From positions 1 through 56,722 of the forward strand of contig JALGVA010000011.1 in the NCBI GenBank assembly GCA_029820295.1: 56,722 nt of DNA, given 5' to 3'. The DNA comes from Candidatus Zipacnadia bacterium. GTDB taxonomy: Bacteria > Armatimonadota > Zipacnadia > Zipacnadales > UBA5352. The notes under the pieces were generated by a model that worked only from the letters and a program-made list of their open reading frames with translations, was not told the DNA's origin and searched no databases. The position numbers and the translations under genes are program-made. This document shows, piece by piece, positions 902 to 30,191 of the stretch. Each line of letters opens with the position of its first letter. Position 1 is the stretch's first letter.

Positions 902-937
902 AGAGGTCGCGCCCTTTGACCGCCGACCGAGGTGCCC

Positions 938-1915
938 ATGAGGGAGATATTCTTCTCGCACGCAATCCGAGAGGCGCTCGAAGAGGAGATGGCGCGCGAT
1001 CAGCGCGTCATCCTCATTGGCGAGGACATCGCCGAGTACGGTGGCGCCTTCAAGATCACGCGCGACATCGCGCAGCGCTTCGGCAAGGAGCGTGTGCGCA
1101 ATACGCCCATCAGCGAGAACGGCTTCGTCGGGGTCGCGGTGGGCGCCGCCATGACCGGCCTGCGTCCGGTCGCCGAGCTGATGTTCATGGACTTCCTGAC
1201 GCTCGCCATGGACCAGCTCTGCAACCACGCGGCCAAGCTACGCTACCAGTACGGGGAGCAGTGCCGCATGCCGCTGGTGCTGCGCTGCCCGGCGGGCGCG
1301 GGGCGGTCCTACGGGCCGACGCACTCGCAGAGTCTGGAGCGCTGGCCGTTCTCGACGCCGGGGCTGCTGGTGGCCGCACCGGCGACCGCCGCCGACGCCA
1401 AGGGCCTGCTCAAGAGCGCGATCCGCTGCGATGACCCGGTAGTGTTTGTCGAGAGCAAGCTGCTCTACGGCCAGCGCGGCGAAGTGCCCGAGGGCGAGTT
1501 CACGGTGCCGCTGGGCGAGGCGGCGGTGCGGCGCGAGGGCGAGGACATCACGCTGGTCGCGTGGTCGCGCATGGTGAGCGAGGCGTTGCGCGCCGCCGAG
1601 GCCCTGGCCGAGCACGATGTCGCCGCCGAGGTGATCGATCTGCGCACGCTCGCGCCGCTGGACACGGCGACGGTGGCGGCGTCGGTCGAGGCGACGGGTC
1701 GGGTGGTGGTGGTCGAGGAGGGCAGTCTGACCGGCGGCGTGGCGGGGGAGATTACCGCGCGCATCACGGACGAGTGCTTCGACGCGCTGGAGGCGCCGCC
1801 CAAGCGCGTGGCCGCCCTGGACGTGCCGGTGCCGGCGAGCCGCGTGCTGGAGGAGGCGGCGACGCCTGATTGGCGGGACATTGCCCGTGCGGCGGTGGAT
1901 GTTCTGAGCTACTGA
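938..1915 (+). CDS. 2-oxoacid dehydrogenase E1 component, beta subunit
   Basis: A 325-residue protein matching the beta subunit of pyruvate/branched-chain 2-oxoacid dehydrogenase E1. It has an N-terminal thiamine-diphosphate region with GEDIAEYGGAF, the TPISENGFVGVAVGAA segment, the GAGRSYGPTHSQS loop, and a C-terminal transketolase-C domain with EVIDLRTLAPLD. With an alpha subunit it would decarboxylate a 2-oxoacid and pass the acyl group to lipoyl-E2. The ATG at 938 is preferred over the GTG at 932 because GAGG sits 5-6 bases upstream of it. No alpha subunit or E2 gene is adjacent, so the partners must be encoded elsewhere. The lipoate ligase gene lipB lies about 9.5 kb downstream. It could instead be an acetoin dehydrogenase beta subunit. 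Confidence 0.88.
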   Translation: MREIFFSHAIREALEEEMARDQRVILIGEDIAEYGGAFKITRDIAQRFGKERVRNTPISENGFVGVAVGAAMTGLRPVAELMFMDFLTLAMDQLCNHAAKLRYQYGEQCRMPLVLRCPAGAGRSYGPTHSQSLERWPFSTPGLLVAAPATAADAKGLLKSAIRCDDPVVFVESKLLYGQRGEVPEGEFTVPLGEAAVRREGEDITLVAWSRMVSEALRAAEALAEHDVAAEVIDLRTLAPLDTATVAASVEATGRVVVVEEGSLTGGVAGEITARITDECFDALEAPPKRVAALDVPVPASRVLEEAATPDWRDIARAAVDVLSY

Positions 1916-1920
1916 TCCGT

Positions 1921-2017
1921 CGGGAGAGGCAGCGCGCCGGGGGCACAACGACAACGGCGGGCGGCGTGCCAACGCCGCCCCTCCGGACGGCATGGACATC
2001 GGACGGGAGAGGCAGCG
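1921..2017 (+). repeat. 14-bp direct repeat flanking a 9-bp-stem hairpin
   Basis: The 14-mer CGGGAGAGGCAGCG occurs at 1921-1934 and again at 2004-2017. Between the copies is a perfect inverted repeat: GGGCGGCGT (1959-1967) pairs with ACGCCGCCC (1972-1980) across a 4-base loop. The second copy supplies the Shine-Dalgarno of the following glycosyltransferase. The hairpin has no T-run, so it is not a classical terminator. It may be a small dispersed palindrome that duplicated its target on insertion; that is inference. Confidence 0.6.
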
Positions 2018-2895
2018 TGAGTGAGGCCAACCTGCCCGCGAGCATCATCGTGGTCAGCTACAACAAGCGACCGTACACGCAACTGTGCGTGGCAAGCATG
2101 CTGCGCGGCGATCCGCGGCCGGCGCAGATCGTCGTGATCGACAACGGCTCGCGGGACGGCACCGTCGAGATGCTCGAGGGCGAGTTCGCCGCGCAGGCGC
2201 AGGCCGCGGGCGTCGAATTTGCGCTGATCCGCAACGACTCGAACGTCGGCGCCTGCACCGCGCGCAATCAGGGGCTGGCCGTGGCCTCGGGCGAGTACAT
2301 CGGCTTCATGGACAACGACATCGCGGTTCGCAGTTGCGGCTGGCTGGGCGTGCTGGCGGGCGTGCTCGAGGAGGATCCTGGGTTCGGGATCGTCGGGCCG
2401 AAGCTGGTCTTCCCGTTCGAACCGTACGACATCCAGCACGCCGGCGCGGCCATCTCGCGCAGCGGACGCGTCAAGTACCTGGGCCGCGGGGAGCCGATCG
2501 ACGCGCCCGAGCACAACGCGCGCCGCGAGGTGCAGTGCCTGATCAGCGCCTGCTGGCTCATGCGCGCGGAGGTCCCTGCGCAGATCGGCGGGCTGGACGA
2601 GGTCTTCAACCCGGCGCAGTTCGAGGACTTCGACTTCTGCTACCGCGCCCGCGAAGCCGGCTGGACGGTGCTCTACGACCCGGTGGCCGAGATGTACCAC
2701 TACGAGAGCGTGACCACGGACAACTCGCCCGATGTCAACTACAAGTACGTGACCATCCGCAACGGGATGGAGTTCAAGCGCCGCTGGCGGCAGGTGTTCG
2801 AGACCGAGGACGGGCCACCGGACGAGGAATGCCGCTGGCAGACGCTGGAGACGCGCCCGATCGAGCAGACCGGGATCCCGCCCATCATCGACTGA
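2017..2895 (+). CDS. Glycosyltransferase family 2
   Basis: A 292-residue GT2 (GT-A fold). It begins IIVVSYNKRPYTQ, has IDNGSRDGT, then GFMDNDIAVR as the DxD-type metal/nucleotide site, and the downstream FEDFDFCYRAREAGW segment, which corresponds to the ED catalytic-base region. It transfers a sugar from a nucleotide donor, probably in glycan assembly in the cytoplasm. The GTG at 2017 is chosen because GGGAGAGG lies 5-10 bases upstream; an earlier in-frame ATG would read through the hairpin repeat. It is the first gene of the glycan locus and is followed by an acyl carrier protein gene. Confidence 0.85.
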   Translation: MSEANLPASIIVVSYNKRPYTQLCVASMLRGDPRPAQIVVIDNGSRDGTVEMLEGEFAAQAQAAGVEFALIRNDSNVGACTARNQGLAVASGEYIGFMDNDIAVRSCGWLGVLAGVLEEDPGFGIVGPKLVFPFEPYDIQHAGAAISRSGRVKYLGRGEPIDAPEHNARREVQCLISACWLMRAEVPAQIGGLDEVFNPAQFEDFDFCYRAREAGWTVLYDPVAEMYHYESVTTDNSPDVNYKYVTIRNGMEFKRRWRQVFETEDGPPDEECRWQTLETRPIEQTGIPPIID

Positions 2896-2945: not shown

Positions 2946-3200
2946 ATGGCCGATGCCGAGCTGAAGCAGCAGATCAAGGAGATGATCGTCGAGCGGCTGT
3001 TCCTCGACGTCGATCCCGCCGTGATCGCCGATGACGAGAACCTGATGGAGAGCTACGAGATCGACTCGGTGAACCTGTTCGAGATCGTGGTGGGGATGGA
3101 GGAGCAGTTCGGCATCTCCTTCGAGGACGACGACTTCACGGTCGACCTGTTCGCCACCGTCAACTCGCTCGCGGAGTTCGTGGACCAGAAGCGAGGCTGA
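2946..3200 (+). CDS. Acyl carrier protein (stand-alone)
   Basis: An 84-residue acidic helical protein with the 4'-phosphopantetheine attachment motif DSV at residues 40-42 (Ser41). The flanking YEIDSVNLFEIVVGMEEQFG matches the ACP helix II region. Start ATG 2946 has AAGGAG at 2932-2937. It is not next to fatty-acid synthesis genes. Instead it sits directly before two alpha/beta hydrolases that resemble the exosortase-A-associated hydrolases, so it probably carries an acyl group for modification of a surface glycan or a related product. No acyl-ACP ligase or acyltransferase is recognisable nearby. Confidence 0.88.
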   Translation: MADAELKQQIKEMIVERLFLDVDPAVIADDENLMESYEIDSVNLFEIVVGMEEQFGISFEDDDFTVDLFATVNSLAEFVDQKRG

Positions 3201-3204
3201 GAGT

Positions 3205-4026
3205 ATGCTCGCCCTCGACGAGCGCCTGGTGACCATCGACAGCGGGGGAGAGTCCCTCCACGGCGTGCTGCACCTGCCGGCCGAGGCGACGGGGCGCGCG
3301 CTGGTGTTCTGCCACCCGTTCGCGGAGGAGAAGAAGTGCGCGCACCGCACGATGGTCGATGCCGCGCGCGCCTGCGCCGAGGCGGGCTGGGCGGCGCTGC
3401 GCTTCGACCTGCGCGGCTGCGGTGACAGCCCCGGCAGCTTCGGGCGCTTCGACCTCGACGACTGGCGCGCGGACCTGCAGGCGGCGCTCGACTGCGCGGC
3501 GGGCAAGGCCCAGGCCGAGGCGGTCGGGCTGCTGGGCCTGCGGCTGGGGGCGACGCTGGCCGCCCAGGTGGCCGAGGAGCGCGAGGACGTCGCCTGCCTG
3601 GCGCTGTGGGAGCCGGTGGTCGACGGCGCCGCGTACATCACGCACAACCTGCGGCGCTCGATGATCAAGGCGATGATAACGCGCCACGAGGGCGGCGAGG
3701 AGAGCGAGGGGGCGGCCGCGCAGGCCCATGCACTGGGTGAGGGCACCGTGGACTTCGACGGCTACCAGGTTCCCGAGGCCCTGCGCGAGCAGATTGCGGC
3801 CGTGGACCTGCTGGCCGGGCCGCGAACATACGCGGGGCGGGCACTGATCGTGAACCTGACCTCGCGCGAGACCGTGGCCGAGCCGCTGCAGAAGCTGGCG
3901 GATGCCTACGCGCGCGGGACGGCGGTCGCGGTGCGGCAGGAGCCGGTCTGGCAGCGCATCGGCATCATCGACGCATCACCCACCATCACCGCGACGATCG
4001 ACTGGCTGACGCGGGCTCATGACTGA
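3205..4026 (+). CDS. Alpha/beta hydrolase resembling exosortase-A-associated hydrolase 2
   Basis: A 273-residue alpha/beta-hydrolase-fold protein. Residues 33-42 (LVFCHPFAEE) and 66-75 (RFDLRGCGDS) match, from memory, the hallmark HPFAEE and YGCGDS segments of the family named hydrolase 2 of exosortase A systems. At the nucleophile elbow it has GLRLG (111-115), so an Arg stands where Ser is expected. I recall that family also lacking a canonical nucleophile there. It starts 4 bases after the ACP stop and overlaps the next hydrolase by 8 bases, so the three are translationally coupled. No exosortase gene was recognised in the window. Reaction unknown. Confidence 0.72.
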   Translation: MLALDERLVTIDSGGESLHGVLHLPAEATGRALVFCHPFAEEKKCAHRTMVDAARACAEAGWAALRFDLRGCGDSPGSFGRFDLDDWRADLQAALDCAAGKAQAEAVGLLGLRLGATLAAQVAEEREDVACLALWEPVVDGAAYITHNLRRSMIKAMITRHEGGEESEGAAAQAHALGEGTVDFDGYQVPEALREQIAAVDLLAGPRTYAGRALIVNLTSRETVAEPLQKLADAYARGTAVAVRQEPVWQRIGIIDASPTITATIDWLTRAHD

Positions 4027-4897
4027 GGTTACGCAGGCGACAGAGAGGCACCTGTTCTTCCCGAGCCAGGGGCTGCGCGTGCTCGGCGTGCTGCACACGC
4101 CCGACGTGGAGCCGTGCGGGGCCGCGCTGGTGTTCCTGCACGGCTGGGCGGGCTACCGCATCGGCCCGCATCAGATGTTCACCAAGATGGCACGACGCGC
4201 GGCCGATCGGGGCTTCCACTGCCTGCGCTTCGACTTTCGCGGGCGCGGTGACAGCGAGGGAGATGCGGCCGGCACGACGCTGTCCACCATGATCGAGGAC
4301 GCACGCGCGGCGGTGGCGATGGTCTGCGAGGAAACGGGCGTGGAACGTGTGGCGTTGATCGGCGACTGCTCGGGGAGCGAGGTGGCCATCGGCGCCGGCG
4401 TGCTGGACGAGCGCATCGATTCCCTGGTGCTGTGGTCGGCGCCGATCGTGGGCGGCGACCGCTCCGAGGCCGACGCGGCCAAGCGGCGCAGTATCTACGC
4501 GACGTACCTGCACAAGCTCTTCCGCCGGGAGACCTGGGCGAAGCTCTTCGCCGGGCGACTGCAGCCGAAGATGATCGCGCAGGTGCTTCGCAGCGGCGGC
4601 AGGGGCGCGGGCGAGGAGGGCTCCGAGAGCGACCGCGAGATCGACTGGCACCGGCGCTTCGTGGACTTCCCCGGCGAGGTGCTGTTCATCTACGGCGGCA
4701 ACGACCCGACCACGCCCAGCGCGCTGGCGCACTACGGGGAGCTGTCGCGCAAGGCCGGGCGGGAGTTCAACCATCACGTAGTGGAGGGCGCGAACCACGC
4801 CTTCTACTCGCTGGGCTGGGAAGATGACGTGATGGAGGCGAGCCTGACCTGGCTGGCCCGGCGCTACTGCGCGGTGGGCGACCATGGCGGCGAGTGA
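4019..4897 (+). CDS. Alpha/beta hydrolase resembling exosortase-A-associated hydrolase 1
   Basis: A 292-residue alpha/beta hydrolase. VFLHGWAGYRIGPHQMF (38-54) and LRFDFRGRGDSEG (69-81) match the pattern of exosortase-A-associated hydrolase 1. The nucleophile elbow reads GDCSG (115-119), giving Cys117 as the likely nucleophile, as in dienelactone-hydrolase-like enzymes. The acid Asp and the His (ANHAFYS near residues 259-265) are plausible. It overlaps hydrolase 2 upstream by 8 bases and the following GT4 gene by 14 bases. The likely role is hydrolysis or transfer of an acyl group linked to the ACP pathway; this is inference from context. Confidence 0.72.
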   Translation: MTEVTQATERHLFFPSQGLRVLGVLHTPDVEPCGAALVFLHGWAGYRIGPHQMFTKMARRAADRGFHCLRFDFRGRGDSEGDAAGTTLSTMIEDARAAVAMVCEETGVERVALIGDCSGSEVAIGAGVLDERIDSLVLWSAPIVGGDRSEADAAKRRSIYATYLHKLFRRETWAKLFAGRLQPKMIAQVLRSGGRGAGEEGSESDREIDWHRRFVDFPGEVLFIYGGNDPTTPSALAHYGELSRKAGREFNHHVVEGANHAFYSLGWEDDVMEASLTWLARRYCAVGDHGGE

Positions 4898-6050
4898 CGC
4901 GCGCCGGCCGCGCGTGCTGATGGTCAACCATGTGGGGGAGATCAGCGGTGCGGAGAACAGTCTGCTGACGCTGGTGCGGCATCTGGATCCCGCACGCTTC
5001 CAGGTGGCGGCGGCGGCGCCGCTGGGGCCGCTGGCGTCCGAGCTGGCGGAGCTGGGCGTGCCGGTGAGCGCGATGCCCGCGCTGCGGCTGGCCCGGCCCC
5101 GGAATCCGTGGCAGGCGGCGGGCACGTGGCTGCGGCTGCGGCGCTGGGCGGCGAAGCTGAGCGTCGCGGCGCAGGAGCTGGGCTGCGACCTGGTGGCGGC
5201 GAACAGCCTGACCGCGGGCCTGGCCGCAGCGATAGGCGTGCGGCGGCTGCCGCTGGTGTGGCACGCCCGCGATCTACGCGCGCCCGAGCGCACGGTCCGG
5301 TGGCTCATCCCGCGCGCGACGCGCATCGTAGCGATCTCGGCGTGCGTCGCCGACGCTCTGACCGCCGCGCATCCTGCTGCGCGCGAGCGCACCGCGCTGG
5401 TGTACAACGGTGTGGACACCGCGCGTTTCCACGCGAACCGCCCCGCCGCGCAGGTCCGCGCCGAGCTGGGCCTGCCGGACGACGCGCCGGTCATCGGCAG
5501 CGTGGGGCAGCTCGTGCCGTGGAAGCGCCAGGACCTGTTCATCGAGGCGGCGGCGCGCATCATCGCGCAGATCCCGCGCGCGTGGTTCCTGATCGTGGGC
5601 GCCGACCTCTTCGGGGAGCACAGGGACTACGTCGCCGAGCTGCGCGCGCTGGCCGCGAGCCTGAGCCTGGGAGAGCGCGCGGTGTTCACGGGCTTCCGGG
5701 AGGACATCGCGTCGGTGATGGCGGTGATGGACCTGCTGCTGCATGCGGCCGCCGACGAGCCGCTGGGGCGTGTGGTGATGGAGGCGATGAGCCTGGGTGT
5801 GCCGTGCATCGCGGCCGACGCCTGCGGCCCGGCGGAGATCATCGAGGATGGCGTGAGCGGCATCCTGACGCCGCCTGGCGACGCCGAGGCGATGGCGGCC
5901 CGCGCGGTCGAGCTGCTGGGCCGGCCCGCTGGCGTGGCGCGCATGGGCGAGGCGGCCCGACGGCGCATCACCGAGGCGTTCTCGGCCGAGCGCATGGCGC
6001 GGCTGACCGAGGACGTGTACGAGGAGGCGCTGGCGCGCGGCGAGCGATGA
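4884..6050 (+). CDS. Glycosyltransferase family 4
   Basis: A 388-residue GT-B enzyme. The N-terminal acceptor domain starts RVLMVNHVGEISGAENSLL. The C-terminal donor domain has IGSVGQLVPWKRQDLFIEA (near 204-222) and the EX7E-type region EPLGRVVMEAMSLGVP (near 292-307). It would extend a lipid-linked oligosaccharide at the inner face of the membrane. Its start lies inside the end of the hydrolase 1 gene and its stop overlaps the next GT4 (ATGA), which indicates a single polycistronic unit. Donor and acceptor sugars cannot be deduced. Confidence 0.85.
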   Translation: MAASDARRPRVLMVNHVGEISGAENSLLTLVRHLDPARFQVAAAAPLGPLASELAELGVPVSAMPALRLARPRNPWQAAGTWLRLRRWAAKLSVAAQELGCDLVAANSLTAGLAAAIGVRRLPLVWHARDLRAPERTVRWLIPRATRIVAISACVADALTAAHPAARERTALVYNGVDTARFHANRPAAQVRAELGLPDDAPVIGSVGQLVPWKRQDLFIEAAARIIAQIPRAWFLIVGADLFGEHRDYVAELRALAASLSLGERAVFTGFREDIASVMAVMDLLLHAAADEPLGRVVMEAMSLGVPCIAADACGPAEIIEDGVSGILTPPGDAEAMAARAVELLGRPAGVARMGEAARRRITEAFSAERMARLTEDVYEEALARGER

Positions 6051-7201
6051 GGGAGGCCCCGGCGCAGCGGGCGGACGTGCACGTCGCCATCGACTGCCTG
6101 GTGGTGGCGGCGAAGCCGTCGGGGGTCGAGCGCACCGTGACCGGGCTGCTCGAGGGGCTTGCCGAGGCCCGGCCCCGGGGCATGCGCTTCAGCCTGCTGG
6201 CGGCGCAGGGGGCCGAGGATCTCCTGCCGGTGGCGCCGGGCATGTCGGTGCTGAGCGCGCCCGCGTGGGCGCAGGGCCGGGTGGGGCGCGTGCTCTACGA
6301 GCAGACGGTCGCGGCGGCGCGCGTGCGGGCGTCGGGCGCCGATGTGCTCCACGGCCCGGCGTCGGTGCTGCCACTGGATTGGAACGGGCGGTCGGTGGTC
6401 ACCGTCCATGACGCGATCACGCTGTGCCATCCCGAGTGGTGTCAGTGGCACAACGTGGTGCATTACCGGCTGGTGATGACGCGCAGCGCCGAACGCGCCG
6501 ACGCGGTCATCGTGCAGTCACAGTGGACGAAGCGCGAGGTGGTCGAGCAGCTCGGCATCGAGGCGGCGCGCGTGCACGTCTGCCCGCTGGGCGTGGGCGC
6601 GCAGTTCCGGCCGGCGGAGACGGCCGAGGTCGAGCGTGTGCGCGCGCGCCACGGGCTGCCGCAGCGCTACCTCCTGTGCGTGGGCAATGTCGAGCCGCGC
6701 AAGAACCTGGAGGCGGTCATCGCGGCCTTCGAGCTGATCGCAGGCGATGTGCCGCACGCGCTGGTGATCGCAGGCAAGCGCGGCTGGAAGTGTGACGCGA
6801 TCTGCCAGGCGATGCAGGACAGCCCGCAGGCGGCGCGCATCCACTGGCTCGACTGGGTGGCGCAGGAGGAGCTGGCGGCGCTTTACACGGGCGCCGACCT
6901 GCTGGTGCAGTTCTCGCTTCACGAGGGCTTCGGGCTGACGCCGCTCGAGGCGATGGTATGCGGGACGGCGGCGGTGATCTCCGACGCCGGCGCGCTGCCT
7001 GAGGTGGCGGGCGAGGCGGCTGAAGTGGTGGCGCTGGAAGCCGGGGTGGAGGGCCTGGCGGAGACGCTGCGGCGGCTGCTGAGCGATGACGAGGCGCGTG
7101 CGGCGCTGGCCCGCGAGGGCCCGGCGTACGCGGCGCAGTATACCTGGGAGCGGCACGCGCGTGGAGTGCTGGCGGTCTACGCGGAGGTGGCCGGTGCGTA
7201 G
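6047..7201 (+). CDS. Glycosyltransferase family 4
   Basis: A 384-residue GT4 protein. The start is set at the ATG at 6047, which overlaps the previous stop as ATGA; a much longer in-frame extension upstream is only a shadow of the preceding gene. It has PSGVERTVTGLLEGL near the N-terminus, LLCVGNVEPRKNLEAVIAAF in the donor domain, and EGFGLTPLEAMVCGT as the EX7E motif, followed by ISDAGALPEVAG. This pattern resembles mannosyl- or rhamnosyltransferases of the WbaZ/MtfB kind, although the exact sugar is unknown. It overlaps the next GT by 8 bases. Confidence 0.85.
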   Translation: MREAPAQRADVHVAIDCLVVAAKPSGVERTVTGLLEGLAEARPRGMRFSLLAAQGAEDLLPVAPGMSVLSAPAWAQGRVGRVLYEQTVAAARVRASGADVLHGPASVLPLDWNGRSVVTVHDAITLCHPEWCQWHNVVHYRLVMTRSAERADAVIVQSQWTKREVVEQLGIEAARVHVCPLGVGAQFRPAETAEVERVRARHGLPQRYLLCVGNVEPRKNLEAVIAAFELIAGDVPHALVIAGKRGWKCDAICQAMQDSPQAARIHWLDWVAQEELAALYTGADLLVQFSLHEGFGLTPLEAMVCGTAAVISDAGALPEVAGEAAEVVALEAGVEGLAETLRRLLSDDEARAALAREGPAYAAQYTWERHARGVLAVYAEVAGA

Positions 7202-8444
7202 CGGCGGGGCGGGCGAGCGGCTGGTGTACGTGGTCGGCAGCTTCCCGTCGCTGTCGGAGACCTTCATCCTGCGTGAGATCGAAGAGCTGGAGCGCCGCGG
7301 CCTGCGCATCGCCATCATGTCGCTGGAGCCCGGCGACGACGTGGTGCATGAGCGCGCCGCCGCGCTGGCCGACCACGTCGTGCACCGGGCCTCGCCGCTG
7401 TCGCTGGGCTCGATGCTGGCACAGTTGCACACGGCGTTCACGCGGCCCCTCGGCTACGCGGGCGCGCTGTGGTTCGTCATCACGAACGCGCTGCGCCGGC
7501 CGAGCGCGACGGGGGAGCTGCTGCGCAGTCTGCTCGCGGCGGCGTTCTTCGCGTGCGCGCTGCGCGGGGTGCGTCCGCGGCACGTGCACGCACACTTCGC
7601 GTCGATGCCCGCGACCGTCGGGCTGCTGCTGGCGCTGCTGCTGGAGACGGCGTTCTCGATGTCCGCGCACGCGCGCGACATCTTCACCGACGAGGCGCTG
7701 CTGCTCGAGCGCAAGCTGCGCGAGGCCGAGTTCGTGGCGGTGTGCACCAACGTGGGCCTCGAGCACCTGCGGCGGCGGTACCCGATGTCGGCGGGCGGGC
7801 GGCTGAACCTGATCTACCACGGCGTGGACGTGGTCGAGCTGATGCCGCCGCCGCATCCGGAGCCGGCGGACGGGCCGCCGATGATCCTGTCGGTGGGGCG
7901 GCTGGTGGAGAAGAAGGGCTTCCCAATCCTGCTGCGCGCGGCGGCGATCCTGCGGGAGCACGGCGTGGAGTTCGTGCTGCGCATCGTGGGCTCCGGGCCG
8001 GACGCGGACGACCTGCGGCGGCTGGCGACCGGCCTGGCGCTGGGCGAGTGCGTGCAGTTCGACGGGGCGGTGCCACACGAGCGGCTGATGGACATCTTCC
8101 CGCGCGCGGCCGTGTTCGTGCTGGCGTCGGTAGTGGCCAGCGACGGCGACCGCGACGGGCTGCCGAACGTGCTGCTCGAGGCGCTGGCGCTGGGCGTGCC
8201 GGCGGTGAGCACGCGCGTGTCGGCGATCCCGGAACTGATCGTGCACGAGCAGACCGGCCTGCTCGCCCGGCCCGGCGATCCCGAGGACCTGGCCGAGCAG
8301 ATGGAGCGCATGCTCTTCGACGAGGAGCTGCGTGCGCAGGTGGTCGAGCAGGGGCGGATGGCCGTGGTCACCCGCTTCGACGTGCGGGAAAATGCGGCGC
8401 AACTGGCCGACCTGTTCACGGCGGTCATGTCGCGCCGGCGGTGA
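7194..8444 (+). CDS. Glycosyltransferase family 4 (colanic-acid WcaL/AmsK-like)
   Basis: A 416-residue protein beginning near LVYVVGSFPSLSETFILREI, a segment characteristic of WcaL/AmsK-type exopolysaccharide glycosyltransferases. The HAHFASMPAT segment is also typical. The donor domain has ILSVGRLVEKKGFPILLRA and the EX7E motif in DGLPNVLLEALALGVP. The GTG at 7194 is chosen because it overlaps the previous stop by 8 bases and gives an N-terminus of normal length. It ends the first tightly packed glycosyltransferase run and is followed by a 113-base gap holding a long imperfect inverted repeat. Confidence 0.85.
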   Translation: MRSGGAGERLVYVVGSFPSLSETFILREIEELERRGLRIAIMSLEPGDDVVHERAAALADHVVHRASPLSLGSMLAQLHTAFTRPLGYAGALWFVITNALRRPSATGELLRSLLAAAFFACALRGVRPRHVHAHFASMPATVGLLLALLLETAFSMSAHARDIFTDEALLLERKLREAEFVAVCTNVGLEHLRRRYPMSAGGRLNLIYHGVDVVELMPPPHPEPADGPPMILSVGRLVEKKGFPILLRAAAILREHGVEFVLRIVGSGPDADDLRRLATGLALGECVQFDGAVPHERLMDIFPRAAVFVLASVVASDGDRDGLPNVLLEALALGVPAVSTRVSAIPELIVHEQTGLLARPGDPEDLAEQMERMLFDEELRAQVVEQGRMAVVTRFDVRENAAQLADLFTAVMSRRR

Positions 8445-8450
8445 CAACTC

Positions 8451-8541
8451 GGGGCGCCGCGTGCCCCCGTGCACTCGCGCAGGTCGGGCATCGTCTCCGA
8501 CACGGTCGTCACGCGTGAGTGCGCGGGCACTGCGCGCCCCC
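8451..8541. repeat. Long imperfect inverted repeat between glycosyltransferase and flippase genes
   Basis: The left arm starting GGGGCGCCGCGTGCCCC (8451-8467) and running through GTGCACTCGCG is largely complementary to the right arm at about 8512-8541, which ends GCGCGCCCCC. Arms are about 25 bases with small bulges, and the loop is about 35 bases. It may act as a terminator or attenuator, or stabilise RNA. No T-run follows. The pairing was judged by eye. Confidence 0.45.
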
Positions 8542-8557
8542 ACGTGGTGAGTGCAGC

Positions 8558-10216
8558 GTGAGCGACACACAGGACCGGCACGTCGAGCAGGACCGGCAGG
8601 CGGGCGCGCGCATGACCGGCGCGGTCATCGTCATCAGCGCCTTCCTCTTCCTGGGCAAGGTCGCGGGCTACGTCAAGGAAGCGATGGTGTCCGACTACTG
8701 GGGGTTGTCGGGCGGGCTCGATGCCTTCAAGGTGGTCTACAACTCGGTCATCATCCTCGTCTACACCAAGGCCGAGAAGCTGCTGCGCCCCACCTACCTG
8801 CCGATCTTCGTGCAGCACCGCGACAAAGGGCGCGAGGAGGAGGCGTGGCGCTTCTTCAGCACCTCGACCAATGTCGCCTTCCTGGTCATGCTCGCGATCA
8901 CCGCGCTGTGCACCGGCTTCGCGCCAGAGATCATCCGCGTGGGCTGGCCGGGCATGGACGCGTCCACCGCGGCGCTGGCGGTGAGCCTGCTGCGTATCGC
9001 CGGGGCCGCGATGGTGCTGCTGGTCATGTCGGTGATGACCGAGATGACGCTGCACTCCTACAAGCGCTTCACCGCGCCGGCGCTGGCCGAGGCCATGATG
9101 CGCATCGTGCTGCCCATCACGATCTTCGGGTTGGTGGCGGCGTGGGGGATGGGACCGAGCGAGGGCCGGGTGGGCGTGTCGCCGCAGGCGCTGCGCGCCG
9201 CCGCCATCGGCGTGCTCATCGGCGCCGCCCTGCGGCTGCTGGTGCAACTCCCGGCGTTGTGGCGCAAGCTGCGCATGTATCGGGTGACGCTGAACCTGCG
9301 CAACCCCGACGTGGTGCGCATGGTCAGGCTGATGCCGCCCGTGGTGGTCGGGCTGCTGGCGTCCTCGGCGCGCACCTACTTCGACAGCCGCTTCAGCGTG
9401 GACGCGGGCGAGGGCATCTACACCGCGCTCGATTTCGCGCGCAAGATCGCCGACGCGCCCATCCTCATTCTCCCGCTCGCGGTCGCCCTGGTGGTCTTCC
9501 CGTTCGTCTCCGAGTGGGCCTCGCGCGAGAACCGCGAGATGTTCACGCGCGCGCTGGTGTCGATGACGCGCGTGATGGCCTTTATCTTCGTGCCCATGGC
9601 GGCCGGGCTCATCGTCCTCGCGCTCCCGGCCATCCGCTTCCTGTACATGGGCGAGGGCGCCTTCACCATGGAGGACTCGTTCGTGGTGCGGCGCGCGCTG
9701 ATCCCCTACGCGGCGGGCATCCCGTTCTTCGCGGTGGAGAGCAGCCTCGACAAATGGTATTTCGCGCTGGGCGACACCGCCACGCCCAACTATGTGGGCG
9801 CCGCGGCCGCCGGCCTGCATGTGCTGATCGCGTGGTTCGGCGTGCACGTGCTCAAGCGCAATGTGGGCATCATCGCGCTCGCGCTCACGGCCTCGAAGGG
9901 CATCAAGGTCATCCTCCTCTACGCCATGCTGCGCCGGCGTCTGGAGGCGATTCGCGGCAGTGAGGTCGCGTCCTTCGTCGTGCGCCTGGCCTGCGCCACG
10001 GGCGTGATGGTGGTGGTGCTGATCCTCGCGTCGAACGCGCTGGGCGGGATGGTCGTGGACGCGGGCCGCATCGAGCGCGCGATCTTCCTCGCTGTGTGCA
10101 CGGGCGTGGGGGCGGTCAGCTACCTGATCAGCGCCGCCCTCCTGCGCATCGAAGAGGTGGGCCAGGTCATCGGCTTCCTGCGTGAGAAGATCGGCCGCCG
10201 CTTCGGGGGACGCTGA
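8558..10216 (+). CDS. MurJ/Wzx-type lipid-linked oligosaccharide flippase
   Basis: A 552-residue integral membrane protein of the MviN/MurJ (MOP exporter) superfamily with about 12-14 hydrophobic helices. Family features are LFLGKVAGYVKEAMVSDYWG near the N-terminus, Arg/Lys-rich cytoplasmic loops and the helix containing PLAVALVVFPFVSEWAS. It would flip a lipid-linked sugar unit across the inner membrane. Start GTG 8558 is tentative; the ATG at 8612 (MTGAVIV) is an alternative that removes a polar 18-residue N-terminus. Position among GTs and before the Wzy-like gene favours a role in exopolysaccharide export rather than peptidoglycan, but true MurJ cannot be excluded. Confidence 0.8.
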   Translation: MSDTQDRHVEQDRQAGARMTGAVIVISAFLFLGKVAGYVKEAMVSDYWGLSGGLDAFKVVYNSVIILVYTKAEKLLRPTYLPIFVQHRDKGREEEAWRFFSTSTNVAFLVMLAITALCTGFAPEIIRVGWPGMDASTAALAVSLLRIAGAAMVLLVMSVMTEMTLHSYKRFTAPALAEAMMRIVLPITIFGLVAAWGMGPSEGRVGVSPQALRAAAIGVLIGAALRLLVQLPALWRKLRMYRVTLNLRNPDVVRMVRLMPPVVVGLLASSARTYFDSRFSVDAGEGIYTALDFARKIADAPILILPLAVALVVFPFVSEWASRENREMFTRALVSMTRVMAFIFVPMAAGLIVLALPAIRFLYMGEGAFTMEDSFVVRRALIPYAAGIPFFAVESSLDKWYFALGDTATPNYVGAAAAGLHVLIAWFGVHVLKRNVGIIALALTASKGIKVILLYAMLRRRLEAIRGSEVASFVVRLACATGVMVVVLILASNALGGMVVDAGRIERAIFLAVCTGVGAVSYLISAALLRIEEVGQVIGFLREKIGRRFGGR

Positions 10217-10219
10217 GCG

Positions 10220-11395
10220 ATGCCCGACGCCGACGGCCGTATCACCGTCGCCCACGTCCTCGAGGCGACTGCGGGTGGCACGCGCCAGTATCTGCTGGAC
10301 GTCTGCCTGGGGCTGCCCGCCGAACGCTTCGCCCAGACCGCCATCGTGTCGCTGGAGCGCGACCCCGAGTTCGCGCACGACGTTGAGGCGCTCGAGGCGG
10401 CGGGCGTGCCGGTCGTGGTCGTGCCCATGGTGCGCCAGGTGTGCCTGCGCCGCGACCTGCGGGCCTTGCGCGAGCTGCGCGGCTTCTTCCGCGATCACCC
10501 CTTCGACATCATCCACGCGCACAGCTCCAAGGCCGGGATGCTGGGGCGGGTTGCCGCGTGGCAGGCGCACAACCCGGCCGCGCGCGTGTACTCCCCGCAC
10601 GCCTTCGCCTTCACCATGGCCATGGGCCGGCCGCGGCGCTCGCTCTTCCGCGTGCTCGAGCGCCTGGCCGGGCGCATCACCGACCTGCTGGTGTGCACCT
10701 GCGAGAGCGAGCGCGAGCTGGCTGTGCGCCACCGCATCGTGCCGCCCTGGAAGGCCGCGGTGGTGCGCACCGGCGTGGACCTGCGCGTCTTCCGCCCGCG
10801 CGGCGAGGGTCATCGGGTGCGCGCCGAGCTGGACTTGCCCGAGCGCCATCGCCTGGTGGGCACCGTGGGCGCGCTGGTCGAGCAGAAGGCGCACGATCTG
10901 CTCATCGACGCGGCGCCGCTGGTGCTCGAGCAGATGCCGCACACCAGCTTCGTGATCGTCGGGTCGGGCCCGCTCGAGGACGAGCTGCGCGCGCGCGCGT
11001 CCGCCCTGGGCCTCGGACGGCGCATGGTCCTTCTGGGCCGGCGCGACGACGTGCCGCGGATCCTCGATGCCCTCGACCTCTTCGTCATGCCCTCGCGTTG
11101 GGAGGGCATGCCCTACGCGCTCATCGAGGCGATGGCCGTGGGGGTGCCGGTGGTGGGCAGCGCGATCCCGGGCATCGTCGATGTCATTACGCCGGGGCAC
11201 ACCGGCTGGCTGGCGCAGCCGGACTCGCCGGCCGACCTGGCGCGTGCGATCGTGGCGGCGCTCGACGAGGAGGGCATGTCGGCGTCGATGGCGCAGGCCG
11301 GGCGCGACCTGGTCATGCGCGAGCACTCGAGCGAACGCATGCTGAGCACGCTGGCCGCGCTCTATCAGCGGCTCGTGGAGGACCGGCCGGCATGA
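10220..11395 (+). CDS. Glycosyltransferase family 4
   Basis: A 391-residue GT4. The acceptor domain has VAHVLEATAGGTRQYLLDV and IIHAHSSKAGMLGRVAA. The donor domain has GTVGALVEQKAHDLLIDA and the EX7E motif within EGMPYALIEAMAVGVP. It starts 3 bases after the flippase stop. Its stop codon overlaps the lipB start as ATGA. It resembles WcaL/RfaG-type transferases of exopolysaccharide loci. Donor unknown. Confidence 0.85.
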   Translation: MPDADGRITVAHVLEATAGGTRQYLLDVCLGLPAERFAQTAIVSLERDPEFAHDVEALEAAGVPVVVVPMVRQVCLRRDLRALRELRGFFRDHPFDIIHAHSSKAGMLGRVAAWQAHNPAARVYSPHAFAFTMAMGRPRRSLFRVLERLAGRITDLLVCTCESERELAVRHRIVPPWKAAVVRTGVDLRVFRPRGEGHRVRAELDLPERHRLVGTVGALVEQKAHDLLIDAAPLVLEQMPHTSFVIVGSGPLEDELRARASALGLGRRMVLLGRRDDVPRILDALDLFVMPSRWEGMPYALIEAMAVGVPVVGSAIPGIVDVITPGHTGWLAQPDSPADLARAIVAALDEEGMSASMAQAGRDLVMREHSSERMLSTLAALYQRLVEDRPA

Positions 11396-12075
11396 GCGAT
11401 CGGCTGTGTGAGGTCTTCGACCTCGGGCGCATCGACTACGCGGTCGCCGAGGATCTGCAGCGGCGTCTGGTCGCCGAGCGACGGGCGGGCAAGGCGCCTG
11501 ACCGTCTGCTCATCTGCGAGCACGATGCGGTGGTCACCGTGGGAGCGGGCTCTGAGCTGCCCGAGGTGGAGATGGCGGCGGCCGAGGCCGCCGGCGTGCC
11601 CGCGTACCGCGTCAGCCGCGGCGGGCGGGCGACGGTGCACTGCCCCGGACAGGTGGTCGCCTACCCGATCCTCGACCTGCGGGAACATCGCACCGACCTG
11701 CACTGGTACCTGCGCGCGCTCGAGGACACCGTCATCGACGCGCTGGCGGACCTGGGCTGCAGGGGCGGGCGAGCGGCGGGGTACACGGGCGTGTGGGTGG
11801 CGGGGCGCAAGATCGCGAGCATCGGGGTTGCGGTGCGCGGATGGGTAACGTATCATGGCGTATCCGTGAATGTGCAGTGTGATCCGGCGCTGTGGCGCCT
11901 GGTTCACCCGTGCGGGCTGGAGCCTGAGCAGATCGCGTCGCTGGCGGACCTGCAGGCAGCGGTTCCCCCGCGGCGCGACATGACGTGCGCCCTCATCGTG
12001 GCATTCGGGCGACGGTTCCATCTGCGGACGCAACAATGCTTGCCGGCGGAACTTCTGGCCCGCACGGTTTTCTAA
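11392..12075 (+). CDS. lipB: Octanoyltransferase LipB
   Basis: A 227-residue protein that transfers octanoyl from octanoyl-ACP to lipoyl domains of E2/GcvH proteins. The family signatures are present: SRGGRATVHCPGQ (75-87, normally RGGxxTYHGPGQ), GRKIASIG with the catalytic Lys140, TYHGVSVNV, and HPCGL with the catalytic Cys174. Thus the active site is complete, but the usual YHGPG is VHCPG. It overlaps the upstream glycosyltransferase as ATGA, so it is translated with the glycan genes, an unusual location. No LipA gene is in the window. An E1-beta gene of a lipoate-dependent complex lies near the left edge. Confidence 0.9.
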   Translation: MSDRLCEVFDLGRIDYAVAEDLQRRLVAERRAGKAPDRLLICEHDAVVTVGAGSELPEVEMAAAEAAGVPAYRVSRGGRATVHCPGQVVAYPILDLREHRTDLHWYLRALEDTVIDALADLGCRGGRAAGYTGVWVAGRKIASIGVAVRGWVTYHGVSVNVQCDPALWRLVHPCGLEPEQIASLADLQAAVPPRRDMTCALIVAFGRRFHLRTQQCLPAELLARTVF

Positions 12076-12186: not shown

Positions 12187-12879
12187 ATGGCGGTCGCCGA
12201 GCAGTTGCGCGAACCCGATGTCATACGCCCCGCGTGGTGGCCGGCCGTGGGCGGGCACATCGGCCTGCTGCTGGTCGCGTTCTCGGCGTCCTGGACCATC
12301 CAGCCTGAGGGGTGGTTCAGCCGCGGGCAGTGGGCGGCCTTCGCCGCGATCGGGCTGGCCACGCTCATCGCGGGCGTGGTCGGGCTGACCGGGCGCGCCG
12401 CGGCACTCGCGGTCCGCGCCCTGCTGGCCCTGGGGGCGGCCACTGCGCTGCACATGGCCTACGACCCGCAGCTCACTTCCCTGCCGGGTTTCGCCGGCCT
12501 GGGCGCCGGGCCGGTGGGCGCGCTCGAGCCGAGCCTGGCGCACCTGGGCGTGGTTATCGTGGCGCTGTTCGCGGCCGCGCAGGCGGCCATCGGCGGCCGC
12601 GAGCGCCTGGCGCGCACGCCCTTTGCGGGTGCGGTCATCGCGGCGGCGTTGTTGCTGGTCGCGCTCGGGGGCGTCATGTGGCTGGGCCTGCACAACGTCT
12701 ATGACCTGTCGGCGGCGAGCGGCATGGCGGTGTTGACCTTCCGCACGGTGTCGTTCGCGCTGCTGCTGCTGGGCTGCCTGGTGATGTCGGACATGCGCGG
12801 CCTGGGCGGGGTGGCCCAGGCCTATGTGGGCCTTGCGCTGCTCGTGGCCATCGCGCGTAACGTCGGGGGGATGGGCTGA
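12187..12879 (+). CDS. Multi-pass membrane protein of unknown function
   Basis: A 230-residue Ala/Leu/Val-rich protein with about six or seven predicted membrane helices and few charged residues; I do not recognise a family. It was examined as a possible exosortase because of the upstream hydrolase pair, but the Cys...Arg...His catalytic pattern of exosortases is not apparent. It lies directly before the Wzy-like gene (1-base gap, start ATG 12881), so it may assist polymerisation or export of the glycan. The start ATG 12187 has GAGGTG at 12177-12182. Confidence 0.7.
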   Translation: MAVAEQLREPDVIRPAWWPAVGGHIGLLLVAFSASWTIQPEGWFSRGQWAAFAAIGLATLIAGVVGLTGRAAALAVRALLALGAATALHMAYDPQLTSLPGFAGLGAGPVGALEPSLAHLGVVIVALFAAAQAAIGGRERLARTPFAGAVIAAALLLVALGGVMWLGLHNVYDLSAASGMAVLTFRTVSFALLLLGCLVMSDMRGLGGVAQAYVGLALLVAIARNVGGMG

Positions 12880-12880
12880 C

Positions 12881-14212
12881 ATGGCCTTCGCGGGCCCGCC
12901 ACGCTCATTCGGGCGTCGGCTGCGCGACCTGTGCTGGCCGCTGGTGCTGGCGCTGATCCTGGTCGCGGCCAACCAGTTCTCGTACGCGCTCGATCCGAAG
13001 GACGGTCCGTTCATCCTTTACGCGGACCTGTTCGCGGCGCTGGTATTCGGCCTGTGGCTGCTCTCGGTGCTGCTGGAGCGGCGCTGGGGGGAGATCGTGC
13101 GGCCGCCCGCGGCCATCTGGGCGCTGCTGGTGGTGGCGGTGCTGTCGGCGCTGGGTGCCACCAGCCTGAAGTCGGCGGCGGTCGAGATCGTGCAGATCGT
13201 GCTCTACTTCGTGGCGGTCTATGCGCTCTTCGCCGACGTGCTGCGCGGCCAGCACCGGCTGGTGGCGGCGGCCAAGGCGGTGGCGATCGCCACCACGGTC
13301 GCCGTGTTCGCCGCGCTGTGGCAGTACTGCACGGTCGATGACCCGATGCTGGTGCGTGGCACCTTTGGCAACCGCAACGTTTACGGCGCCTTCCTCGTAA
13401 TGGTACTGCCGCTGCTTTACGGCATGGCCATCTGGACCCAGGACACACTGCACCGCGCCTGGTTCCTGCTGATCATCGGCGTTGGCGTGCTCACCATGCT
13501 CGCCGGGGTGCAGCTCTGGTGCCTGACCCTGGTCCTGCTGGTACTCAGCGCCCTGAAGGGCCTGCGCGCTCTGGGCTACTACCTGCTGGCCACGGCGGTA
13601 TTCGTGGCGCTGGTCATCAGCGCTCTGCCGATGAACCGGGCCGCGGTGTTCAGTGAGGTGGTGGACCCGATCGAGCGCGGCGAGGTGCACAAGACGGTGA
13701 GCATGCCGGGCGAGGAGCCACCGCCGCTGATCAAGAAGCGCTGGCTGGAGTGGCAGCCGGCGATGAGCATGATCAGCGACAACTTCCTGCTGGGCGTGGG
13801 CACGGGGGGATTCCAGAAGCACATTGGCGAAGGGCAATACTACGGGATGCTGCCGAACGCCAAGAAGACCGAACCCGATACCAACAACCTGTACCTGGTG
13901 GTCGGCGGCTCGATGGGCTTCCTGGGCCTGGTGGCGCTGATGGCCTGGCTCGGGCACTTCTGGCGGCGCGCCGAGGACAACTGGCGCAACGCCGGCGACC
14001 ACTGGTCGATGGGCGTGTGCTGGGGGCTGCTGGGCAGCGTCTATGGCATCATTCTGGTAAACATTGTGTCGAGCCTGTTCGTCAGAGGGAGCAGCCTGGT
14101 GTGGGCTCTCATCTTCGCCATGATCGCATCCGTCCATCTGCACGGATTCGCCGGGGGCAGGCCCCCGGAAGCAGCAGCGGATCAACCTGACGAGAGTCCC
14201 GGGGAGGACTGA
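12881..14212 (+). CDS. O-antigen ligase/polymerase-like membrane protein (Wzy/WaaL family)
   Basis: A 443-residue protein with about 11-12 hydrophobic helices. It has the family pattern of a large periplasmic loop near the C-terminal third (EWQPAMSMISDNFLLGVGTGGFQKH, split around residues 290-314) ending in a segment TEPDTNNLYLVVGGSMGFLG, typical of PF04932 proteins where a conserved His/Asn region faces the periplasm. GTFGNRNVYGAFL earlier is also characteristic. It would polymerise or ligate lipid-linked glycan units outside the membrane. It lies between the membrane protein of unknown function and a run of secreted proteins. Confidence 0.8.
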   Translation: MAFAGPPRSFGRRLRDLCWPLVLALILVAANQFSYALDPKDGPFILYADLFAALVFGLWLLSVLLERRWGEIVRPPAAIWALLVVAVLSALGATSLKSAAVEIVQIVLYFVAVYALFADVLRGQHRLVAAAKAVAIATTVAVFAALWQYCTVDDPMLVRGTFGNRNVYGAFLVMVLPLLYGMAIWTQDTLHRAWFLLIIGVGVLTMLAGVQLWCLTLVLLVLSALKGLRALGYYLLATAVFVALVISALPMNRAAVFSEVVDPIERGEVHKTVSMPGEEPPPLIKKRWLEWQPAMSMISDNFLLGVGTGGFQKHIGEGQYYGMLPNAKKTEPDTNNLYLVVGGSMGFLGLVALMAWLGHFWRRAEDNWRNAGDHWSMGVCWGLLGSVYGIILVNIVSSLFVRGSSLVWALIFAMIASVHLHGFAGGRPPEAAADQPDESPGED

Positions 14213-14214
14213 CA

Positions 14215-14769
14215 ATGCGTCGTCTGATCGCAGTGACCACCATCGTCGCGCTCGTGCTGGTCGCCGCCTCGCTGGCGTGGGCCGCCACCGTGAAGATCGT
14301 CGTGGAGGGCGAGGACTACTTCTCGATCAAGCCCTCGATGGCGAAGGCCACGGGCAGCACCCAGGCTTCAGGCGGGGCGTACATCCACATCCCGCTGCGC
14401 CGCCCGCACGCCACCACCGAGACCGGGCCCGCCGATGACGGCAATGCCCGCTTCAAGATCAACGTCCCCGTGGCCGGCACCTACACCCTGTGGGCGCGCG
14501 CCAACTGGTACGACTCGTGCGGCAACTCGTTCTTCGTGATCGTCGATAACACGCCCTCTACGGTCATCGGTGAGGACGGCACCTACGGGAGCTGGCACTG
14601 GGTGAAGGGCGCGCGCATCACCCTCACCGCCGGCCAGCACGTGATCCGCTTCCAGAACCGTGAGGATGGCGCCAAGCTCGATCAGTTCCTGCTCACCAAT
14701 AACAGCCGCTATGTGCCGGTGCGCGCGGAGACGCGCACGCCGCAGTACATCATCAGGCCGACCCAGTAG
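14215..14769 (+). CDS. Secreted CBM6/35-like beta-sandwich protein
   Basis: A 184-residue protein with a clear signal peptide (residues 1-23, VALVLVAASLAWA then ATV). The mature part resembles a carbohydrate-binding beta-sandwich: VVEGEDYFSIKPSM, FKINVPVAGTYTLWARANW, and a C-terminal GQHVIRFQNREDGAKLDQFLLTN, the usual last strands of CBM6/CBM35-type modules. It probably binds glycan outside the cytoplasmic membrane. It starts 2 bases after the Wzy-like gene and is followed by two larger secreted proteins. No anchor motif is visible. Confidence 0.7.
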   Translation: MRRLIAVTTIVALVLVAASLAWAATVKIVVEGEDYFSIKPSMAKATGSTQASGGAYIHIPLRRPHATTETGPADDGNARFKINVPVAGTYTLWARANWYDSCGNSFFVIVDNTPSTVIGEDGTYGSWHWVKGARITLTAGQHVIRFQNREDGAKLDQFLLTNNSRYVPVRAETRTPQYIIRPTQ

Positions 14770-14798
14770 GCCTGCGGCAGGGGTGCGATGACTCCGCG

Positions 14799-23497: not shown

Positions 23498-24895
23498 ATG
23501 TTCGACGCCACCAGACGGCACAAGCTGAGGCCCGTCGCGCTGCTGTGCGCGGCCGCCATCTGCGCGCTGGGCGCGCTCGCCGCAGCGCAGCAGGACGACG
23601 CCTACCGCCTGGGCGTCGATGACGTCATCACCGTCCGCGTGCTCTACCAGCCCGAGTTCAGCGTCGAGAACGCGACGGTACGACCCGACGGGCGCATCAA
23701 CGTGCCGGTCGCGGGAGAGGTCGAGGTGGCCGGGCGCACCATCGCCGAGGTCGCCGCGACCATCAGCGAGGCCCTGCGCGCGGAGCTGCGCGATCCGCAG
23801 GTGTCGGTGCAGCTCGTGCGCCGACACGTCGAGCCGGTCTACGTGGTGGGCGCGGTGCGCTCCCCGGGAGCCGTGAGCGTGCGCGAGCCGGTGACCGTGG
23901 CCGAGGCCATCGCGCTCGCGGGCGGGCTGACGCCGGCCGCCGCGCCGCGCTTCGGGGTCATCATCGCCGCCGACGGGGCTGAGCGGCGCATCGACGTGCA
24001 GGAGGCGCTGACGGGCGCCATGGGGGGGCAGGCGACCATCGCGCCCGGTGAGACGCTCGTGGTCAGCGCGCAGTTTCTGGTGAGCGTGGTCGGGCGGGTC
24101 GGGGCGCCCGGGCGCTACCCGTCGGAGGCGGGCGATCGCGTGGCGGATGTGCTGGCCGCGGCCGGTGGTCTGGTACCGGGGGCGGCGGACGTCGGCTCGC
24201 TGGTGCGCGCCGACGGCACGCAGCTCGACCTCGACCTGGCGGCGATCGTCGAGCGTGGGCAGGTGGCCGACAACCCGGCGCTCGAGCCCGGCGACCTGGT
24301 CGTGGTACCCGAGGTGACGCGCCGGGTGACGGTCGTCGGGGCCTTCGACGCGCCCGGCCGCTACGACTTCGACGAGGGCGCGCGCGTGTCTGATGCCGTG
24401 GCGTTGGCGCGCGGCGTGGCGGAGGACGCGCGACTGGCGGCGGCGGTGCTGGTGCGGCGCGACGGGTCCTCGGAGGCGGTGGACCTGGAGGCGCTGCTGC
24501 AGGGCGCGGCGGCCGACGATCCGGCGCTGGCCGACGGTGACACGCTGATCCTGCCGCGCGAGGTCGATCGCGTCGCAGTGCTGGGCACGGTGGTGCACCC
24601 GGGGCTCTTCGCGCTGGAACCGGGGATGACGCTGATGGATGCGCTGGCCGCCGCCGGCGGCTGGTCGCAGGACGGCTCGCGGCCGACGGAGACGATCCTG
24701 TGGCGGCGTACCGAGGGCGAGCCGGATATGGTCTTCATCAACGCCCAGGAGCTGCTACGCGGCGACGCCGAGGTCGAGAACCCACTGCTGGCACCGGGCG
24801 ACATCGTCTTCGTGCCCTCCCGGAAGGAGGTCACGCGGGACGAGGCGATCCGCGCGCTGCTGGGCATCACCGGCGTGCTGCGCCTGCTGTTCTGA
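23498..24895 (+). CDS. Polysaccharide export protein (Poly_export plus SLBB repeats)
   Basis: A 465-residue exported protein. After an N-terminal hydrophobic signal (about 10-28), residues 30-110 form a polysaccharide-export domain (YRLGVDDVITVRVLYQPEF, VRPDGRINVPVAGEVEVAG). Four SLBB domains follow, each opening with a VVG...PG pattern: PVYVVGAVRSPG, VSVVGRVGAPGRY, VTVVGAFDAPGRY and VAVLGTVVHPG. The C-terminus ends DEAIRALLGITGVLRLLF, the usual final helix of such proteins. It is the Wza-like component that carries glycan across the periplasm/outer envelope. It is followed six bases later by its Wzc-like partner. Confidence 0.88.
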   Translation: MFDATRRHKLRPVALLCAAAICALGALAAAQQDDAYRLGVDDVITVRVLYQPEFSVENATVRPDGRINVPVAGEVEVAGRTIAEVAATISEALRAELRDPQVSVQLVRRHVEPVYVVGAVRSPGAVSVREPVTVAEAIALAGGLTPAAAPRFGVIIAADGAERRIDVQEALTGAMGGQATIAPGETLVVSAQFLVSVVGRVGAPGRYPSEAGDRVADVLAAAGGLVPGAADVGSLVRADGTQLDLDLAAIVERGQVADNPALEPGDLVVVPEVTRRVTVVGAFDAPGRYDFDEGARVSDAVALARGVAEDARLAAAVLVRRDGSSEAVDLEALLQGAAADDPALADGDTLILPREVDRVAVLGTVVHPGLFALEPGMTLMDALAAAGGWSQDGSRPTETILWRRTEGEPDMVFINAQELLRGDAEVENPLLAPGDIVFVPSRKEVTRDEAIRALLGITGVLRLLF

Positions 24896-26806: not shown

Positions 26807-26858
26807 CCATCACGCGCGGAGGAAGAGCGGCGGCCCAGGGCGGGCGTGCCGCAGTGCC

Positions 26859-28532: not shown

Positions 28533-28533
28533 G

Positions 28534-30186: not shown

Positions 30187-30191
30187 CTGCG

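Follow-up and report, generated by a model that had tools for sequence, protein, structure and literature searches.

The window considered here, i.e. the whole stretch of 56,722 nucleotides analysed, is the complete contig C204 of an Armatimonadota (Zipacnadia-type) metagenome-assembled genome (5.6 Mb in 331 contigs, 98.6% complete, 4% contamination). At positions 2946-4897, it encodes an acyl carrier protein (ACP) followed by two overlapping alpha/beta-hydrolase homologues, hydrolase 2 (HYD2) and hydrolase 1 (HYD1), a trio originally predicted to be an exosortase-A-type cassette without exosortase that may work in glycan modification independently of protein sorting. Actually, this trio is one half of a larger conserved gene set and goes along with ketosynthase (KS) and pyruvate-dehydrogenase-like E1 genes, not with exosortase. 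The gene set, apparently undescribed so far, probably serves to assemble a short acid on a carrier protein with pyruvate-dehydrogenase-like and fatty-acid-synthase-like enzymes and to link this acid to a sugar polymer of the cell surface.

A gene set shared beyond the trio

The conserved order is lipoyl/E3-binding protein-(AcpS)-FabG-KS1-KS2-E1-alpha-E1-beta, then a family 2 glycosyltransferase (GT2), ACP, HYD2 and HYD1, followed by three family 4 glycosyltransferases (GT4a-b-c), a MurJ-like flippase and GT4d. The set is contiguous in the Armatimonadota loci L115, L049, L040 and L041, the first of which holds everything from the lipoyl protein to the flippase within 14 kb. In other phyla, the order is complete through HYD1 in Verrucomicrobia (L137), extends through HYD2 in Kiritimatiellia (L145), where hydrolase 1 was not found, and is present in parts in Lentisphaerae (L144 and L159, at least the latter being cut by a contig end). 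As for the family to which the window belongs, the first half, from the lipoyl protein through FabG, KS1 and KS2 to E1-alpha, is located elsewhere (L105-L110), which separates the genes of the two E1 subunits, the window retaining the order from E1-beta onward, plus lipB. The placement of the E1-beta gene upstream of GT2-ACP-HYD2-HYD1 recurs in relatives and in other phyla. The likely acyl source, namely the E1 pair, a truncated E2, the KS pair and FabG, had been missed in the original prediction, E1-beta lying directly upstream in the window. Elsewhere in the same genome, contig C34 (L070) contains the genes for the lipoyl protein and FabG and breaks off after the first 178 codons of KS1.

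The association was quantified in 291 genomes of the phylum, which are related to one another and many of which are incomplete. The trio was called by a TIGR03101-like HYD2 with an E-value below 1e-20, and KS2 by a match of at least 200 bits, a line chosen by eye (the next scores being 188.6 and 180.8) and applied to a model built in part from trio-bearing genomes. HYD2 was present in 51 genomes, KS2 in 48 and both in 43, so that KS2 accompanies 43/51 trio genomes vs. 5/240 of the others (Fisher p 2e-37, uncorrected for kinship). An order-level count that predates the KS2 profile goes in the same direction (27/31 vs. 2/10). Exosortase, on the other hand, was found in 41/51 trio genomes vs. 199/240 of the others (p 0.69), i.e. 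there is no association. Ten of the 51 trio genomes have no detectable exosortase, several of them being more than 90% complete, at a rate about the same as in genomes lacking the trio; for two of the trio genomes (G189 and G217), the exosortase-free status is inferred from absence among the matches listed.

Regarding the enzymes encoded, E1-alpha and E1-beta both score as pyruvate dehydrogenase E1. KS1 retains the residues Cys158 (23/23 homologues), His291 (22/23) and His328 (21/23), and KS2, of about 310 amino acids, is devoid of a Cys at the position of the KS1 active site. The E2-like protein (182 amino acids) comprises only a lipoyl domain (PF00364), with its DK lysine present, and an E3-binding domain (PF02817); no E2 catalytic, i.e. 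acyltransferase, domain was found, the full-length homologues measuring about 162-185 amino acids. As this catalytic domain is absent, the acyl acceptor is probably not coenzyme A (CoA). No second E2-type lipoyl protein was found in the genome, where the remaining PF00364 match adjoins a biotin carboxylase. Besides, a single lipB was detected in the genome, within the polysaccharide operon of the window, and the matching loci of relatives also have lipB after GT4d, in a comparison of seventeen rows, several of which represent the same genome twice. In one genome, a FGE-sulfatase/EgtB-like gene (PF03781, 174 bits) sits between FabG and KS1 (L048, 2649-3422), and in a Phycisphaerales locus (L164, 10001-18000) three KS-like matches and a gene resembling FabG come after HYD2-HYD1.

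The hydrolase pair and its relation to exosortase-A loci

The three open reading frames (ORFs) of the trio were recovered where they had been placed, all in the same direction and closely packed, with a gap of 4 bases between ACP and HYD2 and an overlap of 8 bases between HYD2 and HYD1. The trio is present as a single copy, the genome search returning one further weak TIGR03101 match, on C225. The phosphopantetheine Ser of the ACP is conserved (19/19), and its top NCBIfam model is the cispentacin ACP AmcB (62.7 bits, cut-off 80). The motifs on which the original prediction relied were read correctly, HYD2 exhibiting HPFAEE (PFAEEKK) together with the elbow GLRLG, and HYD1 the elbow GDCSG. Among the nearer homologues, Arg113 occupies the nucleophile position of HYD2 in 23/23, and Cys117, Asp229 and His260 of HYD1 are each kept in 22/22; in a wide cross-phylum set, which takes in genuine TIGR03100/TIGR03101 exosortase-A-type loci, the HYD2 Arg is found in 80/81, the HYD1 Cys in 74/75 and the HYD1 His in 73/75. 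The elbow motifs are thus not due to chance, since Arg113 and Cys117 are conserved in both sets. The AlphaFold2 model of HYD1 (mean predicted confidence, pLDDT, 91.1) adopts an alpha/beta-hydrolase fold, the closest solved structures being feruloyl esterases and lipases. Judging from these residues, Cys117-Asp229-His260 is probably a catalytic triad and HYD2 probably a non-catalytic partner. In 11/80 loci, from Armatimonadota to Rhodococcus, HYD2 and HYD1 are fused into one ORF, and the AlphaFold2 model of such a fusion (L140; pLDDT 79, predicted template modelling score 0.81, from only 10 sequences) presents two hydrolase domains. The simplest reading is that HYD1 and HYD2 form an active/inactive heterodimer. 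Of note, in Rhodococcus and Mycobacterium (L183, L196 and L193), no ligase, KS or E1 gene was detected near the fused HYD2-HYD1.

The assignment to an exosortase-A-type cassette holds as far as kinship is concerned but not as to membership. TIGR03101 and TIGR03100 are indeed the top NCBIfam models for HYD2 and HYD1, respectively, and the trio, related to the TIGR03100/TIGR03101/ACP trio, lies in a polysaccharide operon; neither hydrolase, however, reaches the cut-off of its model. A bona fide counterpart is seen in Roseateles puraquae (L185), where a TIGR03099 decarboxylase (604 bits) and a TIGR03098 ligase (771 bits) accompany ACP, TIGR03101 (282.3 bits) and TIGR03100 (337.2 bits), all four models being above cut-off, and the same ligase, decarboxylase and ACP occur in eight or more additional loci. 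Both kinds of loci share the ACP and the adjacent HYD2-HYD1 in identical order, the Arg and Cys elbows and nearby glycosyltransferase genes. They differ by the genes beside the trio, i.e. an adenosine monophosphate (AMP)-forming ligase and a pyridoxal-phosphate decarboxylase in exosortase-A-type loci vs. the E1 pair, lipoyl protein, KS pair and FabG in the window-type set. Within the genome of the window, no TIGR03098-type ligase scores above cut-off (best match 295 bits on another contig, cut-off 592), and no TIGR03099 decarboxylase was detected in the related KS-type loci, the genome itself not having been searched with this model. In addition, a quick HYD2 tree places exosortase-A-type loci in a separate clade with 100% support, outside of which the HYD2 of the window falls. 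Since both hydrolases score below the TIGR03101/TIGR03100 cut-offs, they are, by sequence, sisters of the exosortase-A families and not members.

One hydrolase pair with its ACP occurs therefore with two unrelated acyl-loading modules. A possible third loading arrangement is found in Marinobacter lipolyticus (L156, 3444-11687), where HYD2-HYD1 come after a non-ribosomal-peptide-synthetase-like protein of 2149 residues in a locus matching the AMP-ligase query. Hydrolases 1 and 2 owe the epithet "exosortase-A-associated" to a system of which they need not be part, and their occurrence with two loading modules, the active/inactive pattern and the repeated fusions suggest a testable function, that is acyl transfer from ACP in glycan assembly. 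In the open-access literature, no paper was found combining "exosortase A system-associated" and hydrolase; the founding PEP-CTERM paper mentions neither hydrolases nor acyl carriers (PMC1569441).

Proposed glycan acylation and competing explanations

From the gene content and order, active-site residues, HYD2-HYD1 fusions and co-occurrence observed, we infer the reactions, acyl group, acceptor and order of steps as follows. With an about even chance in our estimation, the trio would provide the carrier and the transfer step at the end of a module for glycan acylation, in which an ACP fed from 2-oxo acids and the KS genes acylates a glycan via the Cys/Arg hydrolase pair. E1-alpha/E1-beta, dependent on thiamine diphosphate (ThDP), would decarboxylate a 2-oxo acid and acylate the lipoyl arm of the E2-like protein, an arm that the lipB of the operon may help to make. 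With the E2 catalytic domain missing, the acyl group would be passed to the KS pair and/or the ACP instead of CoA; KS1 would be catalytic and KS2 its Cys-less partner, the chain being lengthened in probably one or a few rounds, and FabG could reduce it to a 3-hydroxyacyl-ACP. HYD1, through its Cys-His-Asp residues and in complex with the inactive HYD2, would take the acyl group from the ACP to a sugar of a lipid-linked oligosaccharide, presumably built by the GT2 and GT4 enzymes, and this acylation would precede MurJ-like flipping, Wzy polymerisation and Wza/Wzc export.

A broader proposal, to which we give somewhat less than an even chance, is that of a CoA-free line where a ThDP enzyme and an E2 lacking its catalytic domain feed a KS pair and an ACP, the Cys/Arg hydrolase pair acylating exopolysaccharide, and where this pair would be an exchangeable transfer unit, which exosortase-A loci use in combination with an AMP ligase. 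With the pyruvate dehydrogenase complex (E1-alpha/beta, E2 and E3), the window-type set has in common the E1-alpha/beta heterodimer genes, the E2-like lipoyl and E3-binding protein and lipB, and its E2-like protein differs by the lack of a catalytic domain. While the parts of the gene set are of known kinds, their combination and the truncated-E2 route look new; nothing relevant on a carrier-loading system of E1, lipoyl and KS proteins was found in the open-access literature, nor any paper describing the gene set, and the Zipacnadia paper mentions neither exosortase nor polyketides nor glycosyltransferases (PMC10290634). If true, this route would provide a CoA-free link between 2-oxo acids and a carrier-protein line and predict acylated surface glycans in little-known phyla.

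Several observations weigh against the proposed glycan acylation. Eight of the 51 trio genomes have no clear KS2, partly owing to incomplete assemblies. In the genome of the window, KS1 is a fragment only, and a family search did not recover the matching KS2 and E1-alpha, the E1-alpha matches on C197, C6 and C283 having no cassette context. An assembly gap is assumed to account for the missing KS2 and E1-alpha because 8/9 other genomes of the family carry a clear KS2, the ninth being of the same genus and 86% complete. The gene set includes no dehydratase, enoyl reductase or recognised acyltransferase. In Akkermansia, Sphingobacterium, Rhodococcus and Mycobacterium, some HYD2-HYD1 loci have neither the KS/E1 set nor a ligase detected nearby, and the hydrolase pair has therefore wider uses. 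The lipB need not be exclusive to the module, since the genome encodes two GcvH proteins, for which it may work as well. Last, HYD1 could be a thioesterase, considering that its closest solved relatives are feruloyl esterases and lipases.

This last point leads to the alternative that survives best, unlikely as it is, according to which HYD1/HYD2 would act on the ACP/KS line as a thioesterase, for editing or for release. The line would then yield a small acid or secondary metabolite in free form, and the glycan genes would be neighbours for reasons of regulation. Besides the esterase and lipase folds, it draws on the likeness to the cispentacin/coronafacate system (AmcB, AmcF, AmcG and AmcH), which provides the closest model for the ACP and, like the window-type set, pairs a KS with a KS-like partner devoid of Cys and relies on ACP-bound chemistry, the AmcF model scoring 238-256 bits against the KS1 of relatives, below its cut-off of 325 as is the ACP below that of AmcB. 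Small cyclic acids are made by minimal amcG-type gene clusters, the starter 2-oxoglutarate being loaded by the ligase AmcH and AmcG acting as cyclisation factor (PMC10698177). The window-type set differs, however, by its E1/lipoyl route, FabG and glycan operon context; an AmcH-type ligase gene was not seen in the cassette, nor was any AMP ligase detected near KS-type loci with an exosortase-type ligase query, AmcH not having been used as query. Moreover, the trio is embedded in a glycosyltransferase operon with overlapping downstream genes, and GT2 stands between E1-beta and ACP in several phyla.

Clearly less probable is a service of the trio in trans to exosortase, an acylated glycan or lipid being then the anchor for PEP-CTERM proteins sorted by an exosortase of the genome. 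The absence of exosortase, PEP-CTERM tail and acyl ligase originally reported for the window was borne out by the PF09721 search, a tail scan of its 306 ORFs and the genes scanned for a ligase, respectively; it does not extend to the genome, where PF09721 matches two proteins, on C227 (203.5 bits with the XrtA model, just below the cut-off of 208) and C63 (137.4 bits). The exosortase on C63 belongs to a second polysaccharide cluster of the genome (L010, 3760-13885), where at least five neighbouring proteins end in PEP-CTERM-like tails (e.g. VPEPGTW...RRRR). As the window is a complete contig, contiguity gives no argument against an exosortase directly next to it; this possibility was rejected given that the two exosortases are situated in the interior of other contigs and that none was detected in the vicinity of related trios. 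The presence of both exosortases and PEP-CTERM proteins would allow action in trans, and in Roseateles related trios accompany the exosortase-A-associated ligase and decarboxylase. Yet exosortase was detected in none of 80 related loci within about 10 kb, it is as common in trio genomes as in the others, and ten trio genomes have no detectable one. As had been predicted, the trio appears uncoupled from protein sorting.

Least probable of all, E1-alpha/beta would be transketolase-like and transfer a two-carbon glycolyl group from a ketose phosphate to the lipoyl arm and the ACP, the hydrolase pair glycolylating the glycan and the KS pair being an acyl shuttle without elongation: the domains of E1-beta are common to transketolase and E1-like enzymes load glycolyl onto carrier proteins in some antibiotic pathways, but both subunits score as pyruvate dehydrogenase E1, KS1 retains its full Cys-His-His set and FabG would be useless.

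Layout of the polysaccharide operon

The features of the window are collected in Table 1. As in flippase/Wzy-type exopolysaccharide operons, a GT4 set and flippase, Wzy-like, Wza and Wzz genes are present, the position of the flippase after the GT4 genes being conserved in relatives; the operon is set apart from these by an ACP, a hydrolase pair, an E1-beta and a lipB of its own.

Table 1. Genes of the trio and of the surrounding polysaccharide operon in the window, with the matches supporting them.
Feature	Position	Strand	Evidence
E1-beta, pyruvate-dehydrogenase-like 2-oxo acid dehydrogenase, ThDP enzyme	932..1915	+	PF02779/PF02780; NF006667 372 bits, cut-off 321
GT2 glycosyltransferase, between E1-beta and ACP	2017..2895	+	PF00535 82 bits; position conserved
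ACP, phosphopantetheine site Ser41 (YEIDSV)	2946..3200	+	PF00550 40.8 bits
HYD2, alpha/beta-hydrolase homologue, Arg113 at nucleophile elbow	3205..4026	+	TIGR03101 129.6 bits, cut-off 202.75
HYD1, alpha/beta hydrolase, probable triad Cys117-Asp229-His260	4019..4897	+	TIGR03100 118.7 bits, cut-off 168.45
GT4 glycosyltransferase a	4884..6050	+	PF00534/PF13439; 14-base overlap with HYD1
GT4 glycosyltransferase b	6047..7201	+	PF00534
GT4 glycosyltransferase c, homology from about 7200	7086..8444	+	PF00534; EpsE model 189 bits
MurJ/MviN-like flippase	8519..10216	+	PF03023 204 bits; TIGR01695 224 bits, cut-off 235
GT4 glycosyltransferase d	10220..11395	+	PF00534 138 bits
lipB, octanoyl-ACP:protein octanoyltransferase (lipoylation)	11392..12075	+	TIGR00214 139 bits, cut-off 83.55
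Hydrophobic membrane-like protein, conserved 3' of lipB	12187..12879	+	tblastn in relatives; no family match
Wzy/O-antigen-ligase-like polymerase	12824..14212	+	PF04932 31.7 bits, at cut-off
Wza-type polysaccharide export protein	23498..24895	+	PF02563 and SLBB domains
Wzz/Wzc-type chain-length determinant	24902..26806	+	PF02706, PF13807

Downstream of the Wzy-like gene, positions 14215-16823 encode two proteins without family match (hyp14 and hyp15), the neighbourhood of which is kept in a Tannerella metagenome-assembled genome and in another bacterium (L150 and L160). Adjoining the export genes (26757-35492), four paralogues of the PF01663 type I phosphodiesterase/nucleotide pyrophosphatase family alternate with one methyltransferase and one GT4 gene, for which a role in glycan tailoring is possible.

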